Shown piece after piece: positions 28,827-51,148 of a stretch of DNA of 64,000 nt. The notes under the pieces are model-generated. The model made no database searches. It was not told where the DNA came from and saw only the letters and a list, made by a program, of their open reading frames with translations. This DNA comes from Bacteroidota bacterium (GTDB lineage: Bacteria > Bacteroidota > Bacteroidia > CAILMK01 > JAAYUY01), in assembly GCA_016776505.1 (NCBI GenBank), contig JADHTG010000004.1, forward strand, positions 1 through 64,000, read 5' to 3'. Made by a program: the position numbers and the translations under genes. Each line of letters begins with the position of its first letter. Within the stretch, counting starts at the first letter, position 1.

Positions 28827-28868
28827 CTATTTCAATGGTTTTCACTTTAAAATTATTATTAAAACACT

Positions 28869-30053: not shown

Positions 30054-30106
30054 GTGTAATTACATGAATCTGTTTCTTTTCAACTTTTCGTGAAATGAAT
30101 GTCTTC

Positions 30107-30131
30107 AGCCGTTTATTCCAAATAAATGGCT
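30107..30131 (+). terminator. Hairpin after the LolA-like gene
   Basis: An 11-bp stem with one G-T pair (30107-30117 with 30121-30131, CCA loop) lies 54 bp past the stop at 30053. No long T-run follows, so it may be a weak terminator or an mRNA end. Confidence 0.4.
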
Positions 30132-30135
30132 GTTA

Positions 30136-30164
30136 TTGTTATCTCTAATTTTTTCCTATTTTTA
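30136..30164 (+). promoter_or_regulatory. Promoter of propeller gene P2
   Basis: TTG at 30136-30138 is followed after 18 bp by TATTTTTA at 30157-30164. This is the same layout as the P1 promoter, and a short leader follows to the ATG at 30186. Confidence 0.45.
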
Positions 30165-30185
30165 CCCTGATAAATCAATGAACCA

Positions 30186-31541
30186 ATGAAATTAAAAAAC
30201 ACATTCCTGCTATTCATAGCTATAGTACTGATTTCTCACGGACTTGGAGCTCAAAATACAGGCGGCCAATGGCCCGGCTACAGAGGGTATTATGCAAGTG
30301 GAGTTTTGGATCATGCCAATTTACCAGGCAGTTGGGATATTAATAAAGGGACCAACATCAAGTGGAAAGTGAAGATCCCGGGTTTGGGATTATCGAGTCC
30401 TGTTATTTGGAATGAACAGCTTTTCATCACTACAGCCATCAGTGAAAAAGACAAGGAGGGACTTAAAGTCGGTATTTATGGAAATGTAGAATCTGTGGAC
30501 GATGAATCAGAACATGAATGGAAAGTATTATGCATCAATAAATATACAGGTCAAACAATCTGGGAAAGAACTTCATGCAAAGGAGTCCCACAGATCAAAC
30601 GACATTCCAAATCTTCTCATGCCAATAGCAGTATAGCCACTGACGGGCAGTATGTGGTTGCTTTTTTTGGTTCAGAAGGATTGTTTTGCTATGACATGCA
30701 TGGGGAGTTGATCTGGACTAAAAATTTTGGAAAGCTTAAATCGGTATTTTTTGCTGCTGAATCCGCTGAATGGGAATTTGCCAGTTCTCCGATCATTCAT
30801 AAAGGAATTTTGATCATTCAATGCGATGTGATGGAAAAATCTTTCGTAGCTGCATTTGATATCACAAACGGAAAAGAAATCTGGAAGAAAAAAAGAGATG
30901 AATACCCGGGCTGGTGTACCCCGAACATTTATACCGATAACGAACAAACCAGGGTTGTGGTAAATGGGTACAAGCACCGGGGTGCTTATGATTTTGAAAG
31001 CGGGAAGGAAATCTGGAAAATGTCGGGGGGAGGAGATATTCCAATTCCCACGCCCATCATTGGCGGTGAACTCATTTATTTTAACAGCGCCCATGGTAAG
31101 AGCTCCCCAATTTTAGCCGTTAAAAAATCTGCTGTTGGAGATATCAGCTTAAAGAAAGAAGAAACTTCTAATGAATATATCGCATGGAGCAAGGCCAGGG
31201 GTGGAGCCTATATGCAAAGCATGCTTTTATACCAGGATTATTTATATAATTTCAGATGGAATGGAACTGTTTATTGTTTAAATGCCATCACAGGAGAAGA
31301 GCTTTACAAGGAAAAATTAGGCAAAGCGTCCAGTTTTACAGCTTCACCTGTGGTTTCTGACAATAAAATCTATGTAGCAGAAGATAATGGACGAGTATAT
31401 GTGGTCCAGGCGGGACCTGAGTTCAAATTATTGGCTACAAATTATTTAAGGGATATCTGTATGGTCACCCCAGCCATCACAGAAGGAATTATTTATTTCA
31501 GAACATCCAAATATTTAATCGCTATTTCAAAAGATGAGTAA
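30186..31541 (+). CDS. Secreted PQQ-like beta-propeller protein (P2)
   Basis: A 451-residue exported propeller. The signal peptide ends near GLGAQN. The entry motif is the variant GYRGYYASGV...NIKWKVKIPGLGLSSPVIW, closest to membrane propeller P4 (NIKWKLKIPLQGYSSPIVW), not to P1. Blades with W-K/R turns follow (EIWKKKRDEY, EIWKMSGGGD). The stop overlaps the start of the glutathione peroxidase gene by 8 bp, so the two are translated together. No enzymatic site was identified. Confidence 0.85.
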   Translation: MKLKNTFLLFIAIVLISHGLGAQNTGGQWPGYRGYYASGVLDHANLPGSWDINKGTNIKWKVKIPGLGLSSPVIWNEQLFITTAISEKDKEGLKVGIYGNVESVDDESEHEWKVLCINKYTGQTIWERTSCKGVPQIKRHSKSSHANSSIATDGQYVVAFFGSEGLFCYDMHGELIWTKNFGKLKSVFFAAESAEWEFASSPIIHKGILIIQCDVMEKSFVAAFDITNGKEIWKKKRDEYPGWCTPNIYTDNEQTRVVVNGYKHRGAYDFESGKEIWKMSGGGDIPIPTPIIGGELIYFNSAHGKSSPILAVKKSAVGDISLKKEETSNEYIAWSKARGGAYMQSMLLYQDYLYNFRWNGTVYCLNAITGEELYKEKLGKASSFTASPVVSDNKIYVAEDNGRVYVVQAGPEFKLLATNYLRDICMVTPAITEGIIYFRTSKYLIAISKDE

Positions 31542-32190: not shown

Positions 32191-35100
32191 TTATTCCGAT
32201 CTCAAATGGATCAAATAGTTCCTTTTTAAAGCAGCTTTTGCGGTGATGAAAATGCTTAAAAATCCAACCAGCAGAATGGCTGCAATCAAAACAAAAACAT
32301 ATCCAAGCGGTAAAGTAAAAGCGGGAGATAGAAGTGATGGTAATATGCCTATAAAAGCGGAAATTATGCCTGTTAACAGGCCCAGGCAAAGAATTAGCAG
32401 GTTTTCAGAAATGATCAAACTGAAAATTTGCTTCCTTGTATAGCCCAGTGCTTTAAGCAGTGCCAGTTCATATTTCATGTCCAGCAGATTTCTTAATAAT
32501 ACAATTCCCAAGCCAATCGTGCCAATTAAAATTCCCAAACCTCCAAGCATCATAAAAACAGTGAGATAAGAATTAGTTACCGAGTTGAATTCTGCCAATC
32601 GCTGTGATGTTGGAGAAATTTCCATTCCCAAATCAACAAATTGATCCTTCAGCATTTGATAGATTACATCCTGTCTCTCTTCCGGACCATCCACTAAAAT
32701 TACTTTGGTGCCGTTAACCGATGGAAAATGCTTTTCAAATACCCTATTTGAAACTAAGATGTTTCCCTGGAAGATGGAGTTCTCAAGACCGGCTAAAAGG
32801 ATGAATCCAACATGCTTTCCAAATTCATCTGTATAAAAAAGGGTATCCCCGACTTCTTTCATGAGTCCCCATCTGATCACTGTTTGGTCTGCAATTGCGT
32901 AATAGATGTTGTCATCACTTGAATAATTTAAATCCAACCATGGTGATTTCGACCTGGATTGATCAGAAACTTGGGTAAAAGAAAATGAACTTCTCATTTC
33001 AAACAAGGCAGGATCACAGCCTAAAATAGTTGGATTTTGAACCAGGTTCAGGTTTAAACAACTGGCATCATTGCTTTCAAGCTCATACAATTGTGCAAAT
33101 TCCAATGAGCTGAATAATTCTGTATCAATCCCATAACTTTCCCTGCCTTCTTTCGTGTCCAGGTCATGAAGAATGGGCATACTGCTTTCTGCCCAATATA
33201 AATAGCCACCTGTTCCGGATTGATTGTCATTTTCAACGCCATAAAAGGTTTTCCTGTTTGCCCCAGTAATGATTACAGAGAAGGTGCCCAGTGCTAATAA
33301 AGAAATACTTGCCATATTTCTTTTGTGGTGTAATCCAAGGTTTTTGTAAATCAGGCTTGTAAATGAGATTTTCGAATTCTGTTTTATATTCCCTTTTTTC
33401 TGAATGCTACGACTTATGGTCAGGACAAGGTCAAGCAAGATCAAAAATCCCGCTGCCAGAAAAGCGGATGAATTTTCATCAGGACCATCCATTATGGAGT
33501 AAATTACAAGTCCAATAGCACCTGCAAATGCAGCCCAACTTATCCAAACAGACCATTTAAATCCGGGAGCTTTTGATTTTTCAAGTTCTTTAAGTGATGC
33601 TGCTAATTGTTGTTTTAGCTGATTCCTGCTCACAAAGTAGATGGATAAAAAGGACATAATTAAGCCGGCAAAACCTCCAATAATAAGTGTAGACGGTTTT
33701 AAACTGAGAGACAGCATATCCGTTTTGACTGCATCCTGCCATACAGAATTCAGTCCTGCAAGCAAAAGTTGATTATAAAGGATCCCCATTCCAACTCCAA
33801 TTATTGATCCCAACACAATTACAACTGAAGATTCTGCCAGGCGGATTTTCAGTATCCTTTTTGGTGTAAATCCGATAGAAGCGAGGATAGCTGTTTCCTT
33901 ACTCCTGGACACTGTGTTCAGGCTGTGCAACAAGATCGTCAAAAGCAAGCCGGCAAGAATGACAAAAAAACTAAGACTTAAAAATAATTCTCCAAAATCA
34001 ATGGAATTTTCAGCTGCATTTTCCCCTTCTGACCGTGCATCAACAAAAGACAAATTCAAATCTTTTGGGTTCAATTCATTTAAAATATTTTGTTCCAGGT
34101 CCGACATGTCTGTCGTGTTTTGATCAAACCTGAAAGAGGTGTATTGCCCAAATTTGTTGCTCCACAGCTCCTGCCCTTTATCCAGGGAAATAATTGCTTT
34201 GGGTGTGCCTTTATATTCATCCCAGTAATCTTCATCCCGTTCACTTATTTTGTCTAAATCGATCGGTATGCCTGTATTCCAGTCACTACAACTGCCTGCA
34301 TCCGTTAAGCCCGGGAATTCAGGCATGAGGCTTTTCCGGAAATAACCAGAGCCTATATTCTGGATTTCACTTACCACAAAAGTATCTTGCTTTTCAATCA
34401 ATTCTCTCAATGGCCCAATTGTGAAATAAGAAATGGGAAGTGAGTCACCAGGCCGGATTTGTAAAGCATCAGCCAGCCAGTTGTTTACAGTTATTTCATT
34501 TTTAAGGGACTTTGTTTCTGAGATGGCACTCACAAAAGAATAGGGGACTTTCAGGCTGTCATTACTAATTGAATTGACCAGGTAGCTTAATACTTTTTCT
34601 GAAGGATTCAATTTATTCAGAAGCTGGGAAATGGGTTCGTCAATAAATATCCTTTCTGATTGTACTTCAATTCTATCTTCATCCTCCAGCTTTTTTACAG
34701 TGAGGCTTGCATCGGCCAGCTTCCAATTCTTTTTCAGGCTTTTGTCAATAATAATCTTATCTATATCATCATTTCCTGCTAAAAGAATCGTGTTAACTAA
34801 ACCTTTTAACTCTAGCTTTTTAGCCAGTTCCTTTTGATTCAGGAATACATTGTAAGGTGCTTTTTGATCAGATTTTAAAGAGTATCTGCCCTGTTCATCA
34901 TCAGTCAGAATTTTTTTTATTTTTAGTCTGAAAGAAACCGTAGCCATTTTTTCTTCGGCAAAAGGAGCATTGAGAGGAATGATGCCTGCATTTGCAACCC
35001 GCAAAAGGAATTCATCATACCACTTCAGATTGAGTTTTTCAGCCAAATTTTCACTGATAAATGCTTCGTCTTCCAACAGTTCAGGGATCTTTAATCCCGA

Positions 35101-35454
35101 TAAGGACCAGAAGGATTGATCGATTCCCAATACCTGGACTTTATTGATCCTTTCCTGTTTAAGCGGATCAATGGCCATTCCAATCAATTGTAAAACAGAT
35201 GCCGACCCGATCTCTAAATCTTTAGCAATTTTTGTTGATAAACCTGATGTCACGAATCGATCTCCTGTTTGAAGTACGTATTCAGCATCACCCAGTCGAT
35301 TATCAACCAGGGAGCCTAAGCTGTCTCGGACTGAATCTCCAATGATCAAAGCTCCTGTCAATACCGCCGTACTGATGATGGTGCCTGCCAACAATGCTAG
35401 ATGTTGTTTTTTGTAGAACTTCAGGCTGTTATAGATCAGCTTGGAAATTTTCAT
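32191..35454 (-). CDS. ABC transporter permease with two FtsX domains
   Basis: A 1087-residue inner-membrane protein. The N-terminal helix (about 18-40) is followed by a large periplasmic domain (about 45-480). The first FtsX module has three helices (about 490-620, with the cytoplasmic ETAILASIGFTPKRI coupling loop). A central helix pair follows (about 640-690), then a second periplasmic domain and a C-terminal FtsX module with LALLKALGYTRKQIF. Such permeases act with a LolD/MacB-type ATPase in lipoprotein or macromolecule handling. The ATPase gene is 137 bp upstream. Substrate unknown. Confidence 0.88.
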   Translation of the reverse strand: MKISKLIYNSLKFYKKQHLALLAGTIISTAVLTGALIIGDSVRDSLGSLVDNRLGDAEYVLQTGDRFVTSGLSTKIAKDLEIGSASVLQLIGMAIDPLKQERINKVQVLGIDQSFWSLSGLKIPELLEDEAFISENLAEKLNLKWYDEFLLRVANAGIIPLNAPFAEEKMATVSFRLKIKKILTDDEQGRYSLKSDQKAPYNVFLNQKELAKKLELKGLVNTILLAGNDDIDKIIIDKSLKKNWKLADASLTVKKLEDEDRIEVQSERIFIDEPISQLLNKLNPSEKVLSYLVNSISNDSLKVPYSFVSAISETKSLKNEITVNNWLADALQIRPGDSLPISYFTIGPLRELIEKQDTFVVSEIQNIGSGYFRKSLMPEFPGLTDAGSCSDWNTGIPIDLDKISERDEDYWDEYKGTPKAIISLDKGQELWSNKFGQYTSFRFDQNTTDMSDLEQNILNELNPKDLNLSFVDARSEGENAAENSIDFGELFLSLSFFVILAGLLLTILLHSLNTVSRSKETAILASIGFTPKRILKIRLAESSVVIVLGSIIGVGMGILYNQLLLAGLNSVWQDAVKTDMLSLSLKPSTLIIGGFAGLIMSFLSIYFVSRNQLKQQLAASLKELEKSKAPGFKWSVWISWAAFAGAIGLVIYSIMDGPDENSSAFLAAGFLILLDLVLTISRSIQKKGNIKQNSKISFTSLIYKNLGLHHKRNMASISLLALGTFSVIITGANRKTFYGVENDNQSGTGGYLYWAESSMPILHDLDTKEGRESYGIDTELFSSLEFAQLYELESNDASCLNLNLVQNPTILGCDPALFEMRSSFSFTQVSDQSRSKSPWLDLNYSSDDNIYYAIADQTVIRWGLMKEVGDTLFYTDEFGKHVGFILLAGLENSIFQGNILVSNRVFEKHFPSVNGTKVILVDGPEERQDVIYQMLKDQFVDLGMEISPTSQRLAEFNSVTNSYLTVFMMLGGLGILIGTIGLGIVLLRNLLDMKYELALLKALGYTRKQIFSLIISENLLILCLGLLTGIISAFIGILPSLLSPAFTLPLGYVFVLIAAILLVGFLSIFITAKAALKRNYLIHLRSE

Positions 35455-35591
35455 GCTAAATAATTGATAATTAGGTATTTAATCTCAAATTGAAGACATC
35501 GCTTTAGGTGTAAATTTCAAATTGTCTTGCCACTGATGTTATTGTTTGAATTTTTATCATTGTGCTTTATTTGTTCTTAGTCTTTTGGAAT

Positions 35592-36269
35592 TTATAGTTG
35601 TTCCAGTTTTTTATTCGAAAGCCTGTAAATTTTCTTCATTTTTTTTGCTAATTCCATGGAGTGTGTCACCATTATTAAAGTGCTCTTTTGTTCCCGATTG
35701 AGTTCTGCCAATAAATTCACCAAATCATTTGCTGATTGCTCGTCAAGAGAACCTGTTGGTTCGTCTGCCAGAACCACTTTGGGTTGATTAATCAATGCTC
35801 TGACGACCGCCACTCGCTGACATTCGCCCACAGAACACTGTCCCGGTAGCTGATCCGTTTTATCAGTTAAGCCGACTGCTTCCATGAGCTTCTCCGCTCT
35901 TTTTTTTGCTTCATCGGTCCGTTTTGCAGATTTCAGCGGAAGAACGGCTAACAGGATATTTTCCAGCAGGCTAAGCTGAGGCAGCAAATGATGTTGCTGA
36001 AACACAAATCCAATTTCGGTATTCCTGATTCCAGGATACTCTTTCTCGCTTAATTGTCCCAAATCCTTTTCATTGAGCAAAACAGAACCAGAGGTGGCCC
36101 TGTCAAGTGTTCCGAGAATGTTCAGCAAGCTGCTTTTCCCGGATCCCGAGGGACCAACAATCGCAATGGATTCACCTTGTTCAATATTCAGATCAATTCC
36201 TTCAAGTACGACTTGTATAATGCCTGATGCATTTTCATATTGCTTGCTAAGGTTTTGTATTTTTATCAT
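35592..36269 (-). CDS. ABC transporter ATPase (LolD/MacB type) with atypical signature motif
   Basis: A 225-residue ATPase. The start is set at MIKIQNLSKQY; the frame opens 23 codons earlier without a conserved sequence. Walker A is GPSGSGKS at 39-46, the Q-loop is Gln91, Walker B is VVLADEP at 165-171 and the switch is His203. The family signature LSGGEQQR reads CSVGECQR (145-152), so the first residue of LSGGQ is Cys and one glycine is Val. It is probably still active because other motifs are complete. It pairs with the FtsX-type permease and follows the glycosyltransferase by 61 bp. Confidence 0.9.
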   Translation of the reverse strand: MIKIQNLSKQYENASGIIQVVLEGIDLNIEQGESIAIVGPSGSGKSSLLNILGTLDRATSGSVLLNEKDLGQLSEKEYPGIRNTEIGFVFQQHHLLPQLSLLENILLAVLPLKSAKRTDEAKKRAEKLMEAVGLTDKTDQLPGQCSVGECQRVAVVRALINQPKVVLADEPTGSLDEQSANDLVNLLAELNREQKSTLIMVTHSMELAKKMKKIYRLSNKKLEQL

Positions 36270-36330
36270 ATTTTGGATTTCCTGGAATCTTTGAGTATTC
36301 ATAGCATTATTCTTTTTGACTTTTCGGAAT

Positions 36331-37617
36331 CTATTCAAGAATCTGTTTATAAATCCTAAGCATGTTTTCTGTCAATGTCAAAATATTAAACTTTTCTTCA
36401 ACTGCTTTTCTGCCTGCCATGCTCATTTCATTTATTTTTTCATGATCAGAAAGTATTTCTTCCCACTTTTGAGCAAGAGCGTCTGAATTATTAGGATGAA
36501 AAGTAACGCCTCCTTTTGTGATATTAACTATTTCAGGAAATGCACCCAGATCAGGTTGTACAATTGGAATTCCTGATGACAAAGATTCAAGTTGATACAA
36601 TCCAAAAGCTTCACCAGATAGCACAGGAACTGACAACAAAGTCAGGGATTTAAAGAATTCTTCAAGCTTTTCATGCCTGTAATCCTCAATAAATTCAACA
36701 TCCTTAACAAAATCGTGCTTTTCCAATTTTCTTATTTGCTTGTTAATGAATCGTTTGTCATCTCCGGTTTTACCACCAGTAACTTTTAAATTCACATTTT
36801 TAAATCCAGGTTTTTGTTTGAGCTTAATGAAGGCATCTACCAATACTTCAAATCCATTTTCCTTATTTATTCTTGATAAATATCCAATTGTTGGAGTTGC
36901 AAGATTCGGATTGTGATATTTATAATTAGCCGGATTGACACCAATATGAACGACATGAAGCTGGTCTTTGCGAATCGACATTTTCTTTTTCATCAATTCA
37001 GCATAATAATGACTTACAGCGACAAAAGCATCCACATCTTTAGCCTTTTGGCTCATTAATTTCCATACTTTGTCTTTATAGTTTTCAGACATTGCATCCA
37101 CCCAGACATCTTCATCTTGCAATGAACAAACGACAGAAATATTCAGTTCATGCTTTATCTTATAAGCCAATCCTAAAAGCAATGCATTTGATAAATGCAC
37201 CATATCCGGTTTTTCGGCTTTAAGAAATTCAATTAAATGGTTGAGTTCTTCCCTCTGGTATCCTTCATGTCCTTTTAACATAGAAATGGTCATTCCTTCA
37301 AGCCCTTTTGCGCGTGTTGAGCCCGCTTTCTTAGCAGCATATCTTAGAAATATCCTGGAATTGAAGAATTTTTCCATCCATTCCGGCATTTTCCTGAGAA
37401 AAGGAATTTGCTGTTCCAAATAGATATTTATTGCTCCATAAAAAACGGGTGTTTCCCTATTTAAAAGTCCATTATCGGTCCTAAGGGGCAAATAAATCGG
37501 AAGGCTAATGGCTTCATGTCCCAATCCATCAAGCGTTTTGATGTAAGCACTGTCCCTGAGACAATTTCCACAATAAAATGTACCTCCAAATCCCGGCACT
37601 ATGTTGATTATTTTCAT
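36331..37617 (-). CDS. Glycosyltransferase family 4-like (GT-B fold)
   Basis: A 428-residue cytoplasmic glycosyltransferase. The N-terminal domain opens with KIINIVPGFGGTFYCGNCLRD, with an unusual CGNC pair near residue 16. The C-terminal donor-binding domain has TIGYLSRINKENGF and the EAFGLYQLESLSSGIPIV segment (E-x7-E), typical of GT4. Acceptor and sugar are unknown. The ABC exporter genes follow it closely. Six heptamer repeats precede its start codon. Confidence 0.88.
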   Translation of the reverse strand: MKIINIVPGFGGTFYCGNCLRDSAYIKTLDGLGHEAISLPIYLPLRTDNGLLNRETPVFYGAINIYLEQQIPFLRKMPEWMEKFFNSRIFLRYAAKKAGSTRAKGLEGMTISMLKGHEGYQREELNHLIEFLKAEKPDMVHLSNALLLGLAYKIKHELNISVVCSLQDEDVWVDAMSENYKDKVWKLMSQKAKDVDAFVAVSHYYAELMKKKMSIRKDQLHVVHIGVNPANYKYHNPNLATPTIGYLSRINKENGFEVLVDAFIKLKQKPGFKNVNLKVTGGKTGDDKRFINKQIRKLEKHDFVKDVEFIEDYRHEKLEEFFKSLTLLSVPVLSGEAFGLYQLESLSSGIPIVQPDLGAFPEIVNITKGGVTFHPNNSDALAQKWEEILSDHEKINEMSMAGRKAVEEKFNILTLTENMLRIYKQILE

Positions 37618-37702: not shown

Positions 37703-38806
37703 TCATTGTTTCCCAAAACAATATACATTGCCATCACTCGCACTTACAACAATCATGTCTTTAATGACTGCTATTGTGCTCTGGATCGGGCTGCCAATTT
37801 CATAGGACCATTTTTTATTTCCTGACTTCAAATCAATTAAATAAATCCTTCCGTCCCCGGATCCAATTAAAACCTCATTTCCTGCAATAACAGGAGAACC
37901 TTCAATTTTCCCTAGTGTTTTGAATTTCCACTCGACTGCTCCTGATTTTTTATTAAAACAATATAAAATCCTGTTTTGTGAACCAATAAGAATTTTTTCT
38001 TCTGAAACTGAAGGTGATGAAACGAATGCCCCGGCATCCTTATAATTCCAGATGATGTTTTGTGTTTCCAGGTCAATGCAATAAAATTCTCCATCATAGT
38101 TCCCGAAATAGGCTTTTCCATTTTCAATAGCAGGAGAAGCTGCAATATACGTTTCAATATCTATTTTATTATTCAGTTCACCATTGTGAACATTCACTGA
38201 GTAAAGGAATCCATCACAACCTCCAAATACAGTGCTATTTATATTAATTGCAGGACAACCATTAATGAAATTATCTGTTTCATATTTCCAGTTTAAAACT
38301 CCTTTTTTAGCGTCCAGGCAATACAGGTAAAAATCATAACTGCCGAATAAAACTTGTTTTTTCTTTTTATCCAATGAATAGCTCCAGTTAGCTGCTCCCG
38401 AGATTTGTCCTTCCGACTGGAATTTCCAGCTAAGATCTCCATTCTTCGCATTTATTGCCAATAAATCACCACCTAGTGAACCCACATATATAATCCCATT
38501 TAAATAGAGTGGTGTTGCCTCGATAGAGGATGCAGCATCGTATTTCCAATTGAGTTTCCCCTCTTTAGACAAGCAATATAAGTAGCCATCATCAGATCCT
38601 ACAAAAATACTTTTGCCACAAAAAACCGGGGAGGATTTAATGACATCGCCCGTCCTGAAAGACCATAGCAATTTGAGCTCCTTTGGGACCTGAATTCTCG
38701 ATTTTCCATGCAATGAACTATTTCCCCGTTCGGATGGCCAGCAAGTGGAACTCTGTGCATTCAGTAAATCTGAAAAGAGGATCCCTATGATTAAAAGGAT
38801 TAGCAT
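37703..38806 (-). CDS. Secreted PQQ-like beta-propeller protein (P3), regular BamB-like repeats
   Basis: About 367 residues when started at MLILLIIGILFSDLLNAQSS, a signal peptide. The frame continues 35 codons upstream through an inverted repeat and is unlikely to be translated there. The propeller has very regular blades of about 40 residues, each with a strand like SPVFCGKSIFVGSDDGYLYCL and a turn like GKLNWKY. The entry motif is weaker (SERGNSSLHGKSR...LKLLWSF). It is the most BamB-like of the seven paralogues. Last gene of the redox cluster. Confidence 0.85.
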   Translation of the reverse strand: MLILLIIGILFSDLLNAQSSTCWPSERGNSSLHGKSRIQVPKELKLLWSFRTGDVIKSSPVFCGKSIFVGSDDGYLYCLSKEGKLNWKYDAASSIEATPLYLNGIIYVGSLGGDLLAINAKNGDLSWKFQSEGQISGAANWSYSLDKKKKQVLFGSYDFYLYCLDAKKGVLNWKYETDNFINGCPAININSTVFGGCDGFLYSVNVHNGELNNKIDIETYIAASPAIENGKAYFGNYDGEFYCIDLETQNIIWNYKDAGAFVSSPSVSEEKILIGSQNRILYCFNKKSGAVEWKFKTLGKIEGSPVIAGNEVLIGSGDGRIYLIDLKSGNKKWSYEIGSPIQSTIAVIKDMIVVSASDGNVYCFGKQ

Positions 38807-38808
38807 TC

Positions 38809-38899
38809 GTTTTTTGCCACGAAGACACGAAGACCCGATAGAACACAAAGGATTCACATTTTTAGTGAAACTTCGTATCTTGGTGTCTTTGTAGCAAAA
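38809..38899. repeat. Inverted repeat built of 8-bp CACGAAGA-type units
   Basis: The left arm (from about 38813) contains CACGAAGACACGAAGA. The right arm (to about 38899) is its imperfect complement (CTTCGTATCTTGGTGTC), leaving a loop of about 40 bases. This type of sequence recurs between genes in many Bacteroidota genomes, from general knowledge. It lies just upstream of the P3 start. Confidence 0.6.
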
Positions 38900-38920
38900 T
38901 ATTTTCTTCATGTCTTCATA

Positions 38921-40453
38921 CTATTTAAAAGCCAAAGCCCCGGTTGGACAGGCTTCCACACATTTCTTTTCTGTTTTAGTCAAAGCTTTACTCATCGGAT
39001 AATTAAAAGGAACCTGCATCCTTACATCAAAACCGCGACCGATGAAAGTCAAGCCTGTGTGTTCCTTGTCCTTTGTTGTAATATCTATGCATAAACCACA
39101 CCTGATGCATTTTTCAGTTTCATAGATGACAAATTCATGCTGGATATTTTTTTTAATTTCATTTCGTTTTCCAAAAAGGTATTTTTTCTGACTTGCTTTA
39201 TACTGCTCTGAATAATTTCTCAAATCACAATTCAACCTGTCACGACAATCACAGTGCATGCACCTTTTGGCTTCAGCAATGGCATCATCCATATTGAATA
39301 ATCCGATTTTTCCGTTTTCAGGTGTATACCTGTCATCTCTTGTAGATTCTTTCAGGTATTCATCAAATTCGGAAGCCAATAGTTTTCCAAATTTTGAGTT
39401 GAACCTTTTCTCTTTATTGGTAAAAGATTTGCCATTTAGAAATTCATTGATCGACCTGGCTGCTTCTTTCCCTTGAGCGACACAGCGAATGGCCATTTTT
39501 TCTTTCCTCACTATTGATCCGGCAGCAAAAACTCCCTCCAGGTTTGTTGTGTAAGTCTGTTTATCAAATTGATTTATACTGAATTGATTGCTGTTTTCAC
39601 TTCCGGTTGCTAATAGGATAGCATGAAAATCCTTTTTTAAATCATTGAATGCTTCCTGTTTAACATGTTTATTAAGCTGAACTTTTAATCCAAAATCCTT
39701 CAAGTAATCTATTTCCGAGTACAAAGCTTCGACAGGAAGCGTATGATCATGGACTGCCTTTATCAAAGATCCTCCTGCTTCTGCATGCTTGTCAAAAATC
39801 ATCACCTCATGCCCGAACCTAGTCAAATAAAAAGCTGCTGATAAAGCCGTTGGACCGCTACCTATTACTGCTGCTTTTTTGTTGCTTGGTGTATTCTTTT
39901 CAGGAAAATAAATTTTTTTCGAATCCAGATCAAATTTTGCCACAAATTTCTTGAGCTGACAAATTGAAACTGCATCGTCAACTTGTTTTCTGTGACAGGC
40001 ATGTTCACATGGAGCAGTGCAGATGTATCCTAAAATCAATGGCAGTGCAATATCTTCTTTCACTACTTGCAATGCTTCCTGATGACTTCCTTCCATGATC
40101 AAGCGATTCATTAAAGGAATGTCCATATGGGCAGGACAGCTCAATTTGCATGGAGCCTCACAATCGCCTACATGATCGCTTAATAAAAGCTCAAGTGTAT
40201 CTTTTCTTGCTTCTATAATTTCTTCATCTTCCGTGATGATATTCATTCCATTCATAACAGGCATGGCACATGATGGAAGCAGCTTCCTGGTATTCTGGTC
40301 CTTAACTACGCAAATCATACAGGATGGATGGTTGCTGTATCGCTCCATAAAGCACATGTTAGGGATTTCAATACCAAGACTTTCAGCAGCCTTAAGTATG
40401 GTTGTACCTTCTTCGGCCTGAATAGATTTATTATTTATTTTTAGCTCTATCAT
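38921..40453 (-). CDS. [2Fe-2S]/GltD-like FAD/4Fe-4S fusion flavoprotein lacking the NAD(P)H domain
   Basis: A 510-residue cytoplasmic protein of several redox modules. First comes a NuoG-type [2Fe-2S] domain with Cys34, 45, 48 and 62. A GltD-type N-terminal Fe-S region follows (Cys98, 102, 106, 145, 149, 153), then an FAD domain with GSGPTALSA at 198-206. The chain then goes from LATG (281-284) to LEGVFAAGS (305-313) in about 22 residues, so the NAD(P)H domain of about 120 residues found in GltD/NfnB is absent. The FAD aspartate of AAGD is Ser313. C-terminal Cys motifs (399-409, 449-455, 498-502) suggest more clusters. Probable partner of the NuoEF protein. Confidence 0.85.
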   Translation of the reverse strand: MIELKINNKSIQAEEGTTILKAAESLGIEIPNMCFMERYSNHPSCMICVVKDQNTRKLLPSCAMPVMNGMNIITEDEEIIEARKDTLELLLSDHVGDCEAPCKLSCPAHMDIPLMNRLIMEGSHQEALQVVKEDIALPLILGYICTAPCEHACHRKQVDDAVSICQLKKFVAKFDLDSKKIYFPEKNTPSNKKAAVIGSGPTALSAAFYLTRFGHEVMIFDKHAEAGGSLIKAVHDHTLPVEALYSEIDYLKDFGLKVQLNKHVKQEAFNDLKKDFHAILLATGSENSNQFSINQFDKQTYTTNLEGVFAAGSIVRKEKMAIRCVAQGKEAARSINEFLNGKSFTNKEKRFNSKFGKLLASEFDEYLKESTRDDRYTPENGKIGLFNMDDAIAEAKRCMHCDCRDRLNCDLRNYSEQYKASQKKYLFGKRNEIKKNIQHEFVIYETEKCIRCGLCIDITTKDKEHTGLTFIGRGFDVRMQVPFNYPMSKALTKTEKKCVEACPTGALAFK

Positions 40454-43054: not shown

Positions 43055-44860
43055 TTATTTGCCTATACAATACAATAAATCTCCTGCCCTGATATAAATA
43101 TGCCCATCAGCAAAAGCAGGCGTACAATCTGATCTTTCTCCCAATTTCGGCTCAGCAATCAATTCAAATTTTCCGGATGCTTTGATTATCTGCATAGTCC
43201 CTTTTCGATCCAAAAGATATATTTTTCCATCTACCTTAATTGGTGAAGAATAAAAACCATTATCAAATTCATGCTCCCATAGCAGATCCCCGCTTTTAGC
43301 ATCGTAACAAACCACAATACCGTATACTGTCGGAATAATCACCATATCATCAAATGCAAGAGGACTGGGAACTTCTGATAAATATTCATTGTCTTCCCAT
43401 AAAATTTTCTGTGTTTTGACATCTATGGCTACCAAAGATGCATATTCATTCATGGCGAATACAATTCCATTGGCATAGGCTGCTGAGGGGCCCACCTCAC
43501 CTGACATGCATTCCACTTTCCAAAGCTCTTTTCCGTTTTGAGGATCATATGAAGCCACATAGGGATCGGAGCTTAGAATAATCTCATTTCTGTTTCCGGT
43601 GTGGACCACTATGGGTGATGCCCATGAAATATTAACTTTTCTTTCTGTGCTCCAAATAATGGATCCGTCTTCAGCAGATAAAGCCATTAGTTTTGCACTC
43701 CTTCGCTGATCATATTGTACAATCAACTTATTCTCAAACATGACAAGGGAAGAAGAGTGCCCATAATGATTAACCGGCATTCCCAGATTTTTAGACCATT
43801 TCAGTTTCCCATTCAAATCTACTGCGATGATGTCTCCATTGCCAAATATGGCATATATATGAGTCCCATCTGTTGTTGGGGTAGGCGCAGCAAGCCCTGT
43901 ATCATCTGAAGTTTCAGGTGATTTTGGAGGTGAACCCGGAATGTTTTCAGCTCTCGAAGTCCATAGTATTTTGCCTGAATTTTTGTCTATGCAATACAAT
44001 TCGCGATTGTTATTACTTGCAGCTGTTATAAATACTTTATCATCCCAAACAATGGGGGAACTATAACCCTGCAAGGGGATTTTTAATTTCCATTTTATAT
44101 TTTGATTGCCGGGCCCATCCCACTGAACAGGTATATTTTTTTGATAGGATATACCGTTGCTGCCCGGTCCCCGAAATGAAGGGAAGTTTTGTTTTATTAA
44201 TGCCCATGAGGGAAATGTATATTTTTCATTAATTATGATTTCATTCATTGTATCCAAAATCACAGAATCTGATTCAGGCTTTGGTAATTCATCCTGTTTT
44301 TCTGTAAACATTTGCTCTCCTTTTTCATCTCGATCTGTTGATCTGCCAGCTGCCTGCGTGAACTGATTTTCCAGTTCAGAATTGGACAGATATGCTGCAA
44401 TGAGCGCTGCTGCAACAATTACGATTCCTCCTGTCATCATCCAAAAACGGGCATTTTTATTATGTAGAATTATATTTTCCGGTTTTTCATCCGAAATAAC
44501 AACTGCCTTTTTTTTGTTAAGACTTATAATTTGTAATGAAATAACAACAACTGCAATTCCAATTAAAAGCAAATAGCCTCCGATCCTTACTTGCCAGGTA
44601 TTGGTGAAATAGGCTTTTCTGCTGACGTGATCAAATGTTCTTATTTCTTCCCTTAAAGCTTCATCTTGTGGATTATCATTCAGGCGCTCTATTAATGCAT
44701 TCAGGGTGTTTTGTTCAATAGGATCTACCTTTTTCATTTGCAGAAAATTGGCAATCAGGAGAATGCAAATGATGAAGGAGAAGATCCCGGCCACGTAGGA
44801 TATTGATATCCATGGTTGCTGGCTGCCAGTTACTCGTATCTCATTTCTCGTTTCTCGCAT
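43055..44860 (-). CDS. Membrane-anchored PQQ-like beta-propeller protein (P4)
   Basis: A 601-residue protein with three membrane helices (about 19-41, 92-113, 140-159) and a soluble propeller from about 226. With the N-terminus in the cytoplasm the propeller is periplasmic. The entry motif is SFRGPGSNGI...NIKWKLKIPLQGYSSPIVW, closest to P2. Blades end in turns such as ILWTSRA and ELWKVEC. The first 15 residues are encoded by a heptamer repeat that includes the start codon. It starts 19 bp after the NapH-like gene and runs directly into NuoEF, so it belongs to the core of the redox operon. Confidence 0.85.
   Translation of the reverse strand: MRETRNEIRVTGSQQPWISISYVAGIFSFIICILLIANFLQMKKVDPIEQNTLNALIERLNDNPQDEALREEIRTFDHVSRKAYFTNTWQVRIGGYLLLIGIAVVVISLQIISLNKKKAVVISDEKPENIILHNKNARFWMMTGGIVIVAAALIAAYLSNSELENQFTQAAGRSTDRDEKGEQMFTEKQDELPKPESDSVILDTMNEIIINEKYTFPSWALIKQNFPSFRGPGSNGISYQKNIPVQWDGPGNQNIKWKLKIPLQGYSSPIVWDDKVFITAASNNNRELYCIDKNSGKILWTSRAENIPGSPPKSPETSDDTGLAAPTPTTDGTHIYAIFGNGDIIAVDLNGKLKWSKNLGMPVNHYGHSSSLVMFENKLIVQYDQRRSAKLMALSAEDGSIIWSTERKVNISWASPIVVHTGNRNEIILSSDPYVASYDPQNGKELWKVECMSGEVGPSAAYANGIVFAMNEYASLVAIDVKTQKILWEDNEYLSEVPSPLAFDDMVIIPTVYGIVVCYDAKSGDLLWEHEFDNGFYSSPIKVDGKIYLLDRKGTMQIIKASGKFELIAEPKLGERSDCTPAFADGHIYIRAGDLLYCIGK
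44819..44860 (-). repeat. Heptamer repeat spanning the P4 start codon
   Basis: On the minus strand the ATG is the start of the first heptamer (ATGCGAG). It is followed by AAACGAG, AAATGAG and three weaker units. The array is translated as the P4 N-terminus (MRETRNEIRVTGSQQ). It resembles the array ahead of the glycosyltransferase. Confidence 0.7.
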
Positions 44861-44879: not shown

Positions 44880-46199
44880 CTATTTAAACCTCACAGGTTT
44901 TCTAAATCCTGCAAACAGAAGCCTGTGAGGTTTTTCTTCTTCAGGCATGGGACAATAATCCATGCATCTTGCACAGCTTAAACAACTTCCCCTGTCTGGT
45001 TCATAATCGATCCTGTGCTTATTAATCGATAATCCTGCCAGGCTTAGCCCAAATACCAATCCTATAAATCCTCCTAATATCCACGCACCCACATGAAACT
45101 CTCTGATTATGGAAGCCGCTTCAACATAAAGATCCTCCTCCGATTTTCCAAGACTTTTGTAGGTAGTTAATTCAAGACTGGGCTCCAATTCGCTGCTTTC
45201 ATTAAAAGTCATTAATTCTTCTGCAAGCTGAACCCGGGGGTGAACACTGGCTAAATTCTCATGAAATTGAGATCCAACCCATCCTCCTGCCAATATCAAT
45301 AAAGGCAAAATAAAGCTAAGAATTATAAATCTTCTGACAGCTATTTGCCTGTCTTCCTTTTTCTTGTCCAGTGTCGGTTCATTGATAGCACCAAAAGGAC
45401 ATGAGTTTTCACAAAGCTTGCATTGTATACAAGTTGTTGGAGTTATGGTCATGTGTTTCCATGATATCCTGCTGACCAGGTTTAATAAAACACCATAGGG
45501 ACAAAAAAACCTGCAGTAAGGACGGGCTACAAATACTCCGACGAGCAGAAATGTAGCACCAAGGACAAACATGCTGAATTTAGCATCAAACCTGTAAATT
45601 CCAATAAAGGGATCGTATCGGCAAATGATAAAATCCGTTGCTGTGGCAGCATATAGCAGCGCAAATCCCAAATATAAATATGGAATGATACCCAATACGG
45701 TTTGCAACCAGGATTTCAGTTTCAAGGGTCGGAATGCTATTATATCCTGTATAGCTCCCAGAGGACAGATTCCTGCACAAAATGTACGACCGAAAAAGAG
45801 GGTGAAGAGCAAAGGAATAACAAAAAATGCGATGACTGTGATGGGTATTTTATATCCCGGGTTGAATAATGCCAGTGCAATGTTTTGAACCGATCCTACT
45901 GAACAAACGCATCCTTCTTTTATAAATCCAAAATATACAATGGAGAAAACTGACATGCCAAGAGCTCCCCACCTGGACCGTTTTTTTAATATGAACCAGC
46001 TAATTAATGACAAGCTAACCAGCAGAACAAAAACATCCAGGTATTCCATGAATTGAGATCGAGCATCCGGTGCAATAGTAGGTGGCTGCTGATGCCCATA
46101 TTCAAATTCCGGTTTGGGAAATCGCTGAACAGGAGAAGCCTGAACAAAGGAAATCGTAAAGAAAACAAAAATCAATATGAATGTGATCTTTTTACTCAT
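44880..46199 (-). CDS. NapH/NosR-like membrane polyferredoxin
   Basis: A 439-residue inner-membrane electron-transfer protein. A signal-like N-terminus is followed by several membrane helices. Between them are the paired cysteine motifs of NapH/NosR/CcoG proteins (GCVCSVG, FCAGICPLGAIQD, YCRFFCPYGVL), then two [4Fe-4S] motifs: CIQCKLCENSCPFGAI near 255 and CLSCARCMDYCP near the C-terminus. It has no FMN-binding domain like that of NosR. It probably passes electrons between quinol or cytosolic donors and the exported ferredoxin next to it. The ATG overlaps the upstream stop as TAATG. Confidence 0.9.
   Translation of the reverse strand: MSKKITFILIFVFFTISFVQASPVQRFPKPEFEYGHQQPPTIAPDARSQFMEYLDVFVLLVSLSLISWFILKKRSRWGALGMSVFSIVYFGFIKEGCVCSVGSVQNIALALFNPGYKIPITVIAFFVIPLLFTLFFGRTFCAGICPLGAIQDIIAFRPLKLKSWLQTVLGIIPYLYLGFALLYAATATDFIICRYDPFIGIYRFDAKFSMFVLGATFLLVGVFVARPYCRFFCPYGVLLNLVSRISWKHMTITPTTCIQCKLCENSCPFGAINEPTLDKKKEDRQIAVRRFIILSFILPLLILAGGWVGSQFHENLASVHPRVQLAEELMTFNESSELEPSLELTTYKSLGKSEEDLYVEAASIIREFHVGAWILGGFIGLVFGLSLAGLSINKHRIDYEPDRGSCLSCARCMDYCPMPEEEKPHRLLFAGFRKPVRFK
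44886..44933. terminator. Terminator-like inverted repeat within the last codons of the NapH-like gene
   Basis: AAACCTCACAGG at 44886-44897 is fully complementary to 44922-44933, with a 24-base loop. It encodes the last 16 or so residues of the NapH-like protein (KPHR...KPVRFK). The stem may attenuate transcription into P4, but it carries no T-run on the minus strand. Confidence 0.5.
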
Positions 46200-46792
46200 T
46201 ATCCCTTTTGCTTTTGATAATCCTTTTCTTCAATTCCTTGAAATAAATAGGCACTCTTGGCGGGAACTCTCGAATAAGCTTCAGATGGGCAATCACGGGC
46301 AATAGAACACTGGTTGCAATTATCACATAGTTTATGATGAACCTGAAGCTGAAGAGAACCATTACCGAAAGCACCGCAACCAGCCACACATTTGGCGCAT
46401 CCTATGCATAAATCCTGGTCAATGTCATATTCAAAAAAAGGATCTTCTATAAACTTTCGTTTGATGGCATTCGTAGGACACAATTGATTTTCAGCTGCTG
46501 TGGTTAAATTCTTAGTTTCTGGTCTGAAATAACCACCACATAAATCACAGTAACCACACAAAGCATATACATGAAAACACTTCACAGCAGAGGGTGTTTT
46601 TACACAGGAGGTCGCACATCGACCACATTGCCGGCATTTAGACGGATCCAATTGCCAAACCATTTCCTGGCTGCTTAATTTTGTCCATGCAGCAACGCCA
46701 ATGGCCCCAATGCCTAATCCCACTGTGTATCGCAAGCCTTTATTTAAAAAGTCCCTGCGATTGAGCTTATTTTTTTTGGATGAATCAGTCAT
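46199..46792 (-). CDS. NapG-like Tat-exported ferredoxin with about four [4Fe-4S] clusters
   Basis: A 197-residue protein. The start is set at MTDSSKKNKLNRRDFL; the frame runs 39 codons further up but overlaps another gene. A twin-arginine signal (NRRDFLNKG, then a hydrophobic stretch) points to folded export. Four cysteine groups follow: CRQCGRCATSC, CGYCDLC with a later CPT, CIGCAKCVAGC and CDNCNQC...CPSEA. This is the NapG/MauM pattern. It would act in the periplasm as electron acceptor of the NapH-like protein. It overlaps the small Tat gene by 8 bp and shares one base with napH-like. Confidence 0.9.
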   Translation of the reverse strand: MTDSSKKNKLNRRDFLNKGLRYTVGLGIGAIGVAAWTKLSSQEMVWQLDPSKCRQCGRCATSCVKTPSAVKCFHVYALCGYCDLCGGYFRPETKNLTTAAENQLCPTNAIKRKFIEDPFFEYDIDQDLCIGCAKCVAGCGAFGNGSLQLQVHHKLCDNCNQCSIARDCPSEAYSRVPAKSAYLFQGIEEKDYQKQKG

Positions 46793-47006
46793 TTTGAGGG
46801 TTTTTAGCTTGTTGCTCGTATTGGTACAGAGCAGCTTCAGGCAATAGACAATGGTTGATTTTTCTGCAATTCTTACAGGCGAAATTAAAACTGCAGTCAG
46901 AAACAACATTCTTCTTGTTTCGTACTATAAAAACAGTGCTCATTGCTGCTAACCCAGAAAATACAGAGCCCCTGATTATATTATTTATGAATTTTCGTCT
47001 GTTCAT
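46785..47006 (-). CDS. Small Tat-signal protein with four conserved-looking cysteines
   Basis: A 73-residue protein starting at MNRRKFINNIIRG (an alternative start lies 6 codons earlier). The twin arginine is followed by a hydrophobic helix (about 16-28), then a short soluble tail with C-x5-C-x2-C-x5-C, close to an Nth-type [4Fe-4S] ligand pattern, then LPEAALYQYEQQ. I do not recognise the family. The stop overlaps the ferredoxin start by 8 bp (ATGACTGA), so it is certainly translated with it. It may be a single-cluster exported subunit or a membrane-tethered partner. Confidence 0.7.
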   Translation of the reverse strand: MNRRKFINNIIRGSVFSGLAAMSTVFIVRNKKNVVSDCSFNFACKNCRKINHCLLPEAALYQYEQQAKNPQND

Positions 47007-47242: not shown

Positions 47243-48205
47243 TTAGAGTTTTTCATAAATTCTCACATTTCCGTTATAGGGATCCAATAAAATGATCCTG
47301 TCTTTCGAATCTACCGCCAAATCGATCCCTTTTGTTCCTTCATCAAAACTTTCAGGCCCGGCTACCAGGCAATCATAATCACCAGACGGCAAATGTATTT
47401 TTACCCTTTCCAGTCCCTTTTCACTTGTAACAAATGAGCCATTGGATAATATGGCCATGTGGGTTGGATTACAACAACCACTAAAACCTTCTATGCTCAT
47501 GGATGTTCGTTCCCAGGAAGAAATAAGCGATCCTGTAAAATCATAAGCCTCAAATGCGTGCCTCCCTGAATTGACAACCCATAATTCATCATCCCGTCCG
47601 ATGGCCAAATCAAAGAAAGGGCTGGGAATAATGAAACCAGGAATCCCTTTCAAAGAGTCTTTTCTCCCAATTTCATTCATAAGTTCCCCTTGCGTATTGT
47701 AATGATAAACGATCTTATTTCCTGCATCTGCCACGAACACATCCGTTTCGGAAGCGTCTATACTAGTGAATATGGCTTTATCGTTCGGGCTATCCCAGCT
47801 ATCCTGAAGAACTCCCATGCTATCCAATACCTCCACATGATCGTTCATGGCAAGATATATTTTAGCATCCGGGCTTATTTTAATAGCAGAGGCATCTTCC
47901 TTTAATTCAATGGTTTCTAATAAATTTCCATTGGATTCGTACACCAGAATTTTTTCGTTTCCAGCAATGTATATCCTGTCTTTATTATCTGTTGCAATGG
48001 CATATAAATTATCTGATTCAGGCAATATCCTTGAAACTTCACGATAACAGATCTGGGATGAGTCGGTTTCTTTAAGATTACTCAAATCGTATTCATACTG
48101 GTTTTCCTTATTTTTGTTTTTTTCATAAAAGAAATCCCTGCCAATAAAAAACAAGGCTGCCAAAAGCAGGAGAACGGATGATACAATGATGATTTTTTGT
48201 TTCAT
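47243..48205 (-). CDS. Membrane-anchored NHL-type beta-propeller with CCNPTH motif
   Basis: A 320-residue protein with an N-terminal anchor (about 5-22) and a six-bladed NHL-like propeller outside the membrane. Blades are seen at about 65-100, 105-140, 145-180, 195-230, 245-285 and 290-320 (patterns like DRIYIAG, ADAGNKIVYHYNTQGE). The sequence FSGCCNPTHMAIL at 241-253 has a vicinal Cys244-Cys245 pair and His249, unusual in NHL domains and possibly a metal or heme site. It lies upstream of the exported ferredoxin genes on the same strand. Confidence 0.8.
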   Translation of the reverse strand: MKQKIIIVSSVLLLLAALFFIGRDFFYEKNKNKENQYEYDLSNLKETDSSQICYREVSRILPESDNLYAIATDNKDRIYIAGNEKILVYESNGNLLETIELKEDASAIKISPDAKIYLAMNDHVEVLDSMGVLQDSWDSPNDKAIFTSIDASETDVFVADAGNKIVYHYNTQGELMNEIGRKDSLKGIPGFIIPSPFFDLAIGRDDELWVVNSGRHAFEAYDFTGSLISSWERTSMSIEGFSGCCNPTHMAILSNGSFVTSEKGLERVKIHLPSGDYDCLVAGPESFDEGTKGIDLAVDSKDRIILLDPYNGNVRIYEKL

Positions 48206-48317: not shown

Positions 48318-49742
48318 TTATTCAGCTTTCATATTAAGGCAAATCATTTTTTTTGAATCTCTCATTATAAGATATCCGTCGGCAATTGCAATCGGTCCCC
48401 AGGCATCCTGTCCGTCCATTACTTTGAATTTATCAAGTAACTTGAAACCGGAAGTGCTCAGCCGGGCAATAGTGACTGTCCCCTCATCATTCAAAATAAA
48501 GAATTTTCCATCAGCCATAATATAGGGTCCTAAACCGAATCGTTCAGTTTGACCACTTGTCCATACCGCTGTTTGTAAATTGTCTTTGTTATAACAAACG
48601 AACTGGTTTCTGTCAGGCCCGGCATCTTTAGGCAATATCCCAAACAGATGATCCTGATAAAAGATGGGGGTTTGCTGTTCTGAAGCCATTCCCTCTTTAG
48701 CTTTATATTTTTTAAGAATTTTAACATCATATTCATTCACATCCCTGACTATTTTAAAAAGCATCGCTCCGGCTCCATAACCTGCGGTAATAAATATTTT
48801 TCCATCATCTAATACCTGCGGTGATGGGGCTACTACAGATGGAGCAAATTCATTGGTTTTCCATAATATTTGTCCCACATCTTCTCCTTCAGCAGATATT
48901 CCACAAATTCCACCAATAGCGGCATAAATATACATTTTTTTTCCTTCTATTGTCATAGGCATAATAGAAGAATGTGACATTTTCCATTGACCAGGATTGG
49001 GTGTTTTCCAAAGCACTTTTCCTGTTGCACAATCCAGCCCGATGATTAATGAAGAGCCTGCAGGGGCAATAATTGCTATGTCATTTTCTATCATCGGGCA
49101 TTGTCCTGTATACCAAAAAGGCATTTCGGATCCATATTCCTTGACTAAATCAATTCCCCAGAGAAAATCTCCTGTTTGTGAATTTGTGCACATGACATGA
49201 CAACGCGGACCTATTGTGACGACAAAACTGTCGTTTACAGCAGGGATTGTTCTTGACATCCCGTGATTTCTTTTCACATGAACCTTATAGGATCTTTTCC
49301 ACAATTCTGTTCCATTTTCGAGAGCAAAGCAGCGCAAAGCGTCCTCTTTTGTTTCTTCATCATAATCGAGGATATAGACTTTGCCATTGTAAATGGCCGG
49401 AGCAGCATGTCCTTCCCCTAATTCCACTTCCCATAGTATATCAGCTGTTTTTCCACCAAAACTACTTATTAATCCGATTTTCTCCTTATTGATATTATCC
49501 CTGTCCGGACCCCTGAAAACATTCCATTTTCCTCTTAAATTGGAGGAATAATCAGCATATTTAATGAATTGTTCTCCTATTTGTATTTTTTCGCTGAGTG
49601 CTGAATCCATATCAATTCGCTGATCCATTCCCGGTACCCTTTTAGTTATATTTTCTGAAGGATTGTAGATAAACCAGAATACCAGTGAGGCTATTCCTAT
49701 TATGATCAGGGAGACAAATATGGATTTGGATAGTCCGTGCAT
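48318..49742 (-). CDS. Membrane-anchored PQQ-like beta-propeller protein (P5)
   Basis: A 474-residue protein with one N-terminal helix (about 8-25) and an extracytoplasmic propeller. Residues 26-70 are a linker. The entry motif is VFRGPDRDNI...ADILWEVELGEGHAAPAIY. Blades carry ELWKRSY and VLWKTPN turns and a region with CHVMCTNSQTGDFLW. It is the most divergent paralogue of the group and does not join the P1/P6/P7 or P2/P4 subgroups. It precedes the NHL gene by 112 bp. Confidence 0.84.
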   Translation of the reverse strand: MHGLSKSIFVSLIIIGIASLVFWFIYNPSENITKRVPGMDQRIDMDSALSEKIQIGEQFIKYADYSSNLRGKWNVFRGPDRDNINKEKIGLISSFGGKTADILWEVELGEGHAAPAIYNGKVYILDYDEETKEDALRCFALENGTELWKRSYKVHVKRNHGMSRTIPAVNDSFVVTIGPRCHVMCTNSQTGDFLWGIDLVKEYGSEMPFWYTGQCPMIENDIAIIAPAGSSLIIGLDCATGKVLWKTPNPGQWKMSHSSIMPMTIEGKKMYIYAAIGGICGISAEGEDVGQILWKTNEFAPSVVAPSPQVLDDGKIFITAGYGAGAMLFKIVRDVNEYDVKILKKYKAKEGMASEQQTPIFYQDHLFGILPKDAGPDRNQFVCYNKDNLQTAVWTSGQTERFGLGPYIMADGKFFILNDEGTVTIARLSTSGFKLLDKFKVMDGQDAWGPIAIADGYLIMRDSKKMICLNMKAE

Positions 49743-49898
49743 TATTACTTATTAAATCTAAACAACATCATTACCAGCAGATAATCGGTTAATTTGGAGA
49801 TGTTTCCACCCTGGGTACAATTTCTTTTAGCAGGGGTTTTTCTTAAAGTTCGCTAATTCACTGTCAGGCTTTGTAAAGAACAATAAAACTTAAATCTT

Positions 49899-51137: not shown

Positions 51138-51148
51138 TTGGGTTTTAA

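Follow-up and report, generated by a model that had tools for sequence, protein, structure and literature searches.

What becomes of a GltD-like flavoprotein from which the domain that receives NADPH has been deleted? The question is raised by one open reading frame in a window of 64,000 nucleotides from a Bacteroidota bacterium (assembly GCA_016776505.1, contig JADHTG010000004.1, positions 1 to 64,000). A preliminary description of its product, made from the sequence alone, had proposed a GltD-like protein without its NAD(P)H domain and with a NuoG-type [2Fe-2S] domain fused in front, whose FAD may pass electrons to a ferredoxin or membrane partner instead. It had also named structure prediction with superposition, and a search for homologues with the same deletion, as checks. 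The protein (named GLTDX) and its parts are as follows.

38921..40453 (-), GLTDX, a StnC/BfuA-like protein of 510 aa, predicted to be NADPH-blind (open reading frame, Pfam, NCBIfam, PDB relatives, structure model and Foldseek)
40160..40453 (-), N-terminal NuoG/HydA-type [2Fe-2S] domain, residues 1-98, with Cys 34/45/48/62 (Cys conservation)
39929..40162 (-), Fer4_20 cluster domain, residues 98-175 (Pfam and residue counts)
39434..39886 (-), residual FAD-type Rossmann domain, residues 190-340 (residue conservation)
39536..39601 (-), deletion joint, residues 285-306, the site of the NADP(H)-binding domain in intact relatives
38924..39406 (-), C-terminal Fe-S region, residues 350-510 (CxxCxC-5x-C at 398-409 and CxxCxxC...C at 449-502)

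Domain layout and the NADP(H) deletion

Pfam placed Fer2_4 at residues 1-75, Fer4_20 at 98-175 and, weakly, an Nqo3-type Fe-S domain at 442-507. Pyr_redox_2 was aligned from protein residues 193-308 to profile positions 2-270 with the middle of the profile unmatched; of the two Rossmann domains (FAD and NADP(H)) by which GltD and NfnB are recognised, the FAD domain alone was found by Pfam and Foldseek. The best NCBIfam model was PRK12814, at 376.9 bits against a cut-off of 916, and a name carried over from that family (NADPH-dependent glutamate synthase small subunit) would misdescribe GLTDX. The front [2Fe-2S] domain is present as described (Cys 34, 45, 48 and 62 invariant in all counted homologues and in intact relatives), in an arrangement that is that of StnC and PRK12814 and not a recent fusion. 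Two C-terminal Fe-S motifs in region 350-510, absent from the preliminary description, were invariant in all full homologues (C398/401/403/409 and C449/452/455/C502) and were retained in Phycisphaerae with the single exception C455F.

The open reading frame was reread: LATG occupies residues 281-284 and GVFAAGS residues 307-313, so that 22 residues separate G284 from residue 307, as the preliminary description had counted. In 57 homologues the same link measured 27-35 residues; the 23 intact relatives, of PRK12814 type (family f22) and StnC type, have 179-193 there and also served for the residue counts below. This is in keeping with the earlier statement that over 100 residues normally sit there. 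The domain replaced by the link is an NADP(H) subdomain of about 150-170 aa. The phmmer alignment of GLTDX with StnC-type chains falls into two parts, query 2-289/290 and 295/300-507, and skips about 165 residues of the target (~292-455). The closest solved chains were the StnC-type 9bov_A, 8oh5_C (StnC) and 9n5u_A. An AlphaFold model built from 42 homologues (pLDDT 87, pTM 0.83) was matched best to the same chains by Foldseek (TMq 0.84-0.86; TM 0.85 on 8oh5_C), with the NADP(H) domain missing. For the 510 residues the alignments took 678-713 columns, which shows that the chain does not carry the missing domain at another place. Relocation of a complete nucleotide domain, which would have overturned the deletion, was thereby ruled out.

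Homologues were sought in 84,980 species genomes. The scan returned 69 loci, nearly all in Bacteroidota, with one in Kiritimatiellae and two in Phycisphaerae; full-length homologues were mostly 480-545 aa. Among sampled Phycisphaerae genomes, 51 of 198 carried a homologue, mostly of 500-570 aa, retaining the FAD domain and showing this gap; 13 of these were examined full-length. The gap was common to every full-length homologue found (about 60 from Bacteroidota and Kiritimatiellae, and about 40 of about 550 aa from Phycisphaerae). A deletion introduced by assembly or sequencing into an intact stnC/gltD-like gene, which would have undone the preliminary description, could be argued while the gap was known from one window only; its recurrence in dozens of independent genomes, among them those of cultured Marinifilum and Perlabentimonas, rules out such an artefact and leaves it a negligible probability. 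GLTDX is an old conserved family, not a single odd protein. Gapped and FAD-less forms made up one clade against NADPH-type relatives (support 99/97), with PRK12814-type proteins as its sister group.

Erosion of the FAD domain

In the residual Rossmann domain GxGPxxL, Asp221 and Gly227-Gly228 are kept, and the RYGIPxxR loop and Asp313 are lost. Among 58 homologues of the window's branch, G198, G200, G227 and G228 were invariant and Asp/Glu221 was present in 56; the flavin-side Arg231, RYGIPxxR loop, Arg238 (equivalent to StnC Arg239) and Asp313 were not conserved. The window itself has T238 and S313, against Arg238 and Asp313 in 23/23 intact relatives. The serine pointed out earlier at the FAD aspartate of AAGD was read correctly, and the 58 homologues carry S (27), N (25), H (5) or E (1) at this position. 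The statement that Asp313 is never kept in the family is true for the Bacteroidota/Kiritimatiellae set and false in Phycisphaerae, where the residue was present in 8 of 13 homologues.

The FAD domain is the fastest-changing part of GLTDX, with a mean pairwise identity of 0.44 against 0.54 for the 2Fe-2S domain; in intact families the same two-domain comparison gave 0.63/0.63 and 0.61/0.60, so that the FAD domain did not lag. The GVFAAG strand was missing in three Bacteroidota members (L073, L076 and L085), and 11 Phycisphaerae proteins of about 340-385 aa had no FAD domain at all. Deletion of the NADP(H) domain came first and erosion of the FAD domain followed. The best tree required five changes for the FAD-less forms and one origin was not rejected (p-AU 0.055); several independent losses in Phycisphaerae are likely.

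In StnC the FAD-proximal cluster C7 is ligated by three Cys and Lys170 (PMC10482914). The corresponding set in GLTDX is Cys106/145/149/165 with Lys168 (StnC Lys170), within which we infer the assignment of individual Cys. This set was invariant in the 58 Bacteroidota/Kiritimatiellae homologues and often lost in FAD-less Phycisphaerae, in which the 2Fe-2S site and three other cluster sites were hardly altered; His94/Cys98/Cys102/Cys153 of the Fer4_20 domain were always retained. The reverse of the usual loss order was seen in one Phycisphaerae protein (L154, G482:C50:79373-80851), in which the FAD fold is kept and Cys106, 145, 149, 165 and Lys168 are lost. Judging from the residues kept, the leftover FAD domain of Bacteroidota probably still binds an adenine dinucleotide yet would be inessential to the electron route.

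The NuoEF partner and the membrane gene cluster

The neighbouring genes are as follows.

32191..36338 (-), LolD-like ABC ATPase and ADOP-type FtsX permease (1087 aa), often in the same conserved neighbourhood
37703..38911 (-), beta-propeller downstream of GLTDX, 402 aa
40643..43054 (-), fused NuoE+NuoF protein (BfuC-BfuB core), 803 aa (Pfam, NCBIfam, PDB relatives and ligand counts)
43055..44860 (-), membrane-anchored beta-propeller with PQQ_2 repeats (propeller43), 601 aa (Pfam, hydrophobic segments and cluster conservation)
44880..46199 (-), NapH-like polytopic Fe-S membrane protein, 439 aa (Pfam Fer4_5, TIGR02163 and topology)
46199..46909 (-), Fe-S protein with a Tat-type RRDFLN signal and about four 4-Cys clusters (open reading frame, Pfam and Cys counts)
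47243..48205 (-), NHL-repeat propeller with a conserved GCCNP motif and a signal-anchor N-terminus
48318..49742 (-), exported beta-propeller (propeller48), 474 aa, conserved in the cluster

StnC proved to be the nearest characterised relative of GLTDX and a NuoEF-like partner is the next gene, so the earlier choice of Stn as the system to compare was apt. By sequence, the NuoEF fusion has sites for NAD(H)/FMN, the [2Fe-2S] sites, B1, B2 with His712 and two C-terminal [4Fe-4S] clusters. Pfam recovered the FMN/NADH 51 kDa domain, NADH_4Fe-4S and C-terminal 4Fe-4S dicluster expected of BfuB, and the thioredoxin-like 2Fe-2S domain expected of BfuC. The best solved relatives were the B subunits of 9bov, 9n5u and 8oh5 and those of bifurcating NiFe and FeFe hydrogenases. 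According to PMC9304861, bifurcating BfuBC are told apart from non-bifurcating ones by B2 with His and the two C-terminal [4Fe-4S] sites. The B2 ligands C625, H712, C717 and C722, the eight C-terminal Cys and the BfuC Cys were conserved in 52/52 homologues, and the fifth B2 position, 663, was Cys or Thr in most. All four B1 ligands are present in the window (C642, C645, C648 and C688); Cys648 was replaced by Gly in 7/53 proteins. Judged on these ligands and domains, the fusion answers to the Bfu description of an electron-bifurcating core. By analogy with Bfu enzymes, the most likely contact site for ferredoxin is formed by the C-terminal clusters of NuoEF, not by the GltD remnant, where the preliminary description had sought a ferredoxin acceptor.

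Of 61 loci that could be judged, 55 had NuoEF upstream of GLTDX. Where enough upstream sequence was available (49 loci), 45 carried the NapH-like gene and 43 the gene for the Tat Fe-S protein. The order propeller48 - NHL - Fe-S(Tat) - NapH-like - propeller43 - NuoEF - GLTDX recurred in Bacteroidota and in Phycisphaerae, with FAD-containing or FAD-less GLTDX; in the 11 FAD-less Phycisphaerae the upstream NuoEF was kept in most, and the NapH, Fe-S and propeller genes were present where the cluster was retrieved. The propeller at 37703..38911 is conserved in Bacteroidota (present at 48 of 52 loci) and was not detected in Phycisphaerae. The LolD-like ATPase and ADOP/FtsX permease adjoin the cluster in Bacteroidota and stand on its other side in several Phycisphaerae. 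About seven genes for PQQ-type beta-propellers surround the cluster in the window (27591-31541, 37703-38911, 43055-44860 and 48318-52369), and sulfatase-like and ThuA-like genes lie close to it in some genomes (L090:11943-13313, L056:11583-12542).

All 15 Cys of the NapH-like protein were invariant in 44 homologues, among them those of two CxxxCP motifs (Fer4_5; C141/C145 and C229/C233) and of a 4Fe-4S ferredoxin motif (C257-C267). Its K/R-rich Fe-S loops were predicted to be cytosolic from their positive charge. It scored 55.2 bits with TIGR02163, below the curated cut-off of 213; no FMN-binding domain was detected by Pfam, and a structure model (pLDDT 73) searched against the PDB gave no useful match. 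The true start of the Tat-signal Fe-S protein is probably about 46792, and its sequence suggests a NapG-like role. An apparent fusion of the Fe-S protein to NapH in L090, L166 and L167 was resolved by tblastn into neighbouring genes in different frames. At six Prolixibacteraceae-type loci (L046, L051, L054, L056, L064 and L074) the GLTDX gene follows heme-biosynthesis-like genes (hemC/D/B/L/E/N/Y or hemN/Y/H, named from the look of their sequences) in place of NuoEF; 4 of the 6 genomes have a full NuoEF elsewhere, adjoining propeller43.

Proposed role and comparison with known systems

With moderate confidence we read GLTDX as the BfuA subunit, through which electrons enter or leave, of a Bfu-type NADH/ferredoxin complex, serving as an NADPH-blind Fe-S wire to a NapGH-like membrane module. 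Its ancestor would have been an NADPH-dependent subunit resembling StnC and PRK12814, from which the NADP(H) domain was lost in a single deletion. In Stn the electron path is NADPH - FAD - C7 - C6 - C5 - C4 - C3 - B1 - FMN (PMC10482914). In the GLTDX family the NADPH end is cut off, sometimes with FAD and C7, and the C6-C3 ligands and NuoEF core are fixed. GLTDX would thus no longer bind NADPH and would act as a wire in the order C6-C5-C4-C3 to B1-FMN, as in Stn. The NapH-like/Tat Fe-S pair is the obvious candidate for the redox protein at the old NADPH end; gene order points to docking of GLTDX/NuoEF with this module, in which the former NADPH-FAD input end would meet the cytosolic Fe-S loops of the NapH-like protein. 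The conserved ligands likewise suggest coupling to ferredoxin. NADH, probably joined by reduced ferredoxin, would supply electrons that enter the membrane and leave to quinone or, by way of the exported Fe-S protein, to a periplasmic acceptor. In this direction, from NADH (with ferredoxin) to quinone or periplasm, flow would be downhill and the reverse would need energy; we infer the flow direction, FAD occupancy and final partner. The genome has a separate NfnAB-like pair, HydABC-like sets and RnfC, and so other routes for NADPH and Fd/NAD exchange. A broader reading, an unrecognised Bfu class of Bacteroidales, Kiritimatiellae and Phycisphaerae that would move electrons from cytosolic NADH and ferredoxin through the NapGH-like module to periplasmic beta-propeller proteins, is put forward only tentatively.

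Some observations weigh against this reading. The GxGPxG and GG motifs and C7 ligands invariant in Bacteroidota imply selection on the FAD/C7 site, which may have a catalytic role there; six loci have the gene beside heme genes, with NuoEF elsewhere in four of the genomes; and Gly replaces the B1 ligand Cys648 in 7 of 53 NuoEF proteins. The first of these would suit an FAD that is retained and working, its flavin face opened by loss of the NADPH domain and exchanging electrons with flavodoxin, ferredoxin or quinone. Such an FAD is also favoured by the near-invariant Asp/Glu221 and by Asp313 in 8/13 Phycisphaerae forms, but the unconserved Arg231, RYGIPxxR loop, Arg238 and Asp313 of the window's branch, the strand missing in three Bacteroidota members and the whole domain missing in 11 Phycisphaerae with the same cluster where retrieved make it rather unlikely. 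The suggestion that the FAD hands electrons to a membrane partner fares similarly: a NapH-like partner does stand in the conserved cluster, and the part given to FAD is weakened because the same cluster occurs with members that lack the FAD domain and often the FAD-proximal cluster. Taken further, the erosion pattern would agree with a remnant that is purely structural, or an ADP/NAD-binding regulator, in a plain NADH:quinone dehydrogenase that does not bifurcate to ferredoxin, and non-bifurcating NuoEF relatives are described in PMC9304861; the bifurcating-core ligands conserved in 52/52, including His712 and the C-terminal dicluster, render this improbable.

The family records, with living intermediates, the stepwise dismantling of a catalytic flavoprotein domain: the NADPH domain went first, the contacts to the flavin next, and finally the FAD domain in its entirety, in some members along with the proximal cluster, the iron-sulfur wire staying fixed throughout. 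If the broader reading is true, a transhydrogenase subunit stripped of its NADPH domain and then of its flavin domain has yielded a core with an extracytoplasmic third substrate. To our knowledge, no earlier bifurcating or confurcating core with such a substrate is known. The cluster is real and conserved, and we propose it as a new variant within the Bfu/Stn family, with a specific candidate mechanism. Bfu enzymes share one core and differ in their third substrate, and 17 BfuB clades were without assigned function in the 2022 survey (PMC9304861); the cluster is a concrete, conserved and testable case in which that substrate looks like a membrane/periplasmic electron module.

The closest likeness is to Stn (8oh5/8oh9; PMC10482914, PMC7483475) and extends to the Caldicellulosiruptor NfnABC (9bov) and Thermococcus sibiricus NfnA (9n5u) structures (TM 0.84-0.86). 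GLTDX shares the order 2Fe-2S, Fer4_20, FAD Rossmann and C-terminal Fe-S, the Lys170 equivalent (K168), the cluster ligands along the electron route (which do not vary in the window's branch) and the pairing with NuoE/NuoF-like subunits. It differs from StnC in lacking the NADP(H) domain and the FdhF-like C-terminal domain, which is needed for the Stn tetramer and was absent by Foldseek from a chain that ends at 510; in lacking, in the window's branch, conserved Arg239 and the FAD Asp; and in an extra Cys165. NuoE and NuoF are fused and a membrane module stands in the cluster, unlike in Stn. With NADP(H) domain, Arg239, FAD Asp and FdhF-like domain all wanting, the system is not a Stn transhydrogenase. 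PRK12814/NF009454 proteins, about 660 aa long and annotated as a putative NADPH-dependent glutamate synthase small subunit, have the layout of GLTDX apart from the NADP(H) domain, which they retain together with Arg238 and Asp313; Cys165 and Lys168 are common to both. Four genomes were examined for this family (f22), and in them it stood beside an IspH/LytB-like gene with no NuoEF nearby.

The Bfu family, as laid out in PMC9304861, combines a BfuBC core with a variable BfuA, its membrane members being Mbh- and Nuo-type. The BfuBC ligand set is found in the fused NuoEF and GLTDX fits BfuA; in the main text of that survey there is no BfuA whose GltD remnant lacks the NADP(H) domain, nor any mention of a NapH-like partner or a fused core. 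An open-access literature search found no paper on this gene cluster. At a contig end of one genome (L132, G000:C81), a 752-aa protein that combines stretches resembling NuoF and GltD lies next to a NuoG-like protein of 232 aa and is possibly another unusual Bfu-type enzyme. NapH-like modules are trans-membrane electron carriers of many respiratory systems (PMC8238504). No NosZ-like or FMN-binding domain was found among the cluster proteins scanned; the combination of NapH-like protein, ABC genes and propellers is reminiscent of Nos in organisation. With NapGH, NosR and PceC (PMC8238504) the cluster shares the CxxxCP motifs, the cytosolic ferredoxin motif and a Tat-exported Fe-S partner, and it differs from NapH in the extra conserved Cys97/Cys99, a C-terminal cluster and the link to a Bfu-type NADH module.
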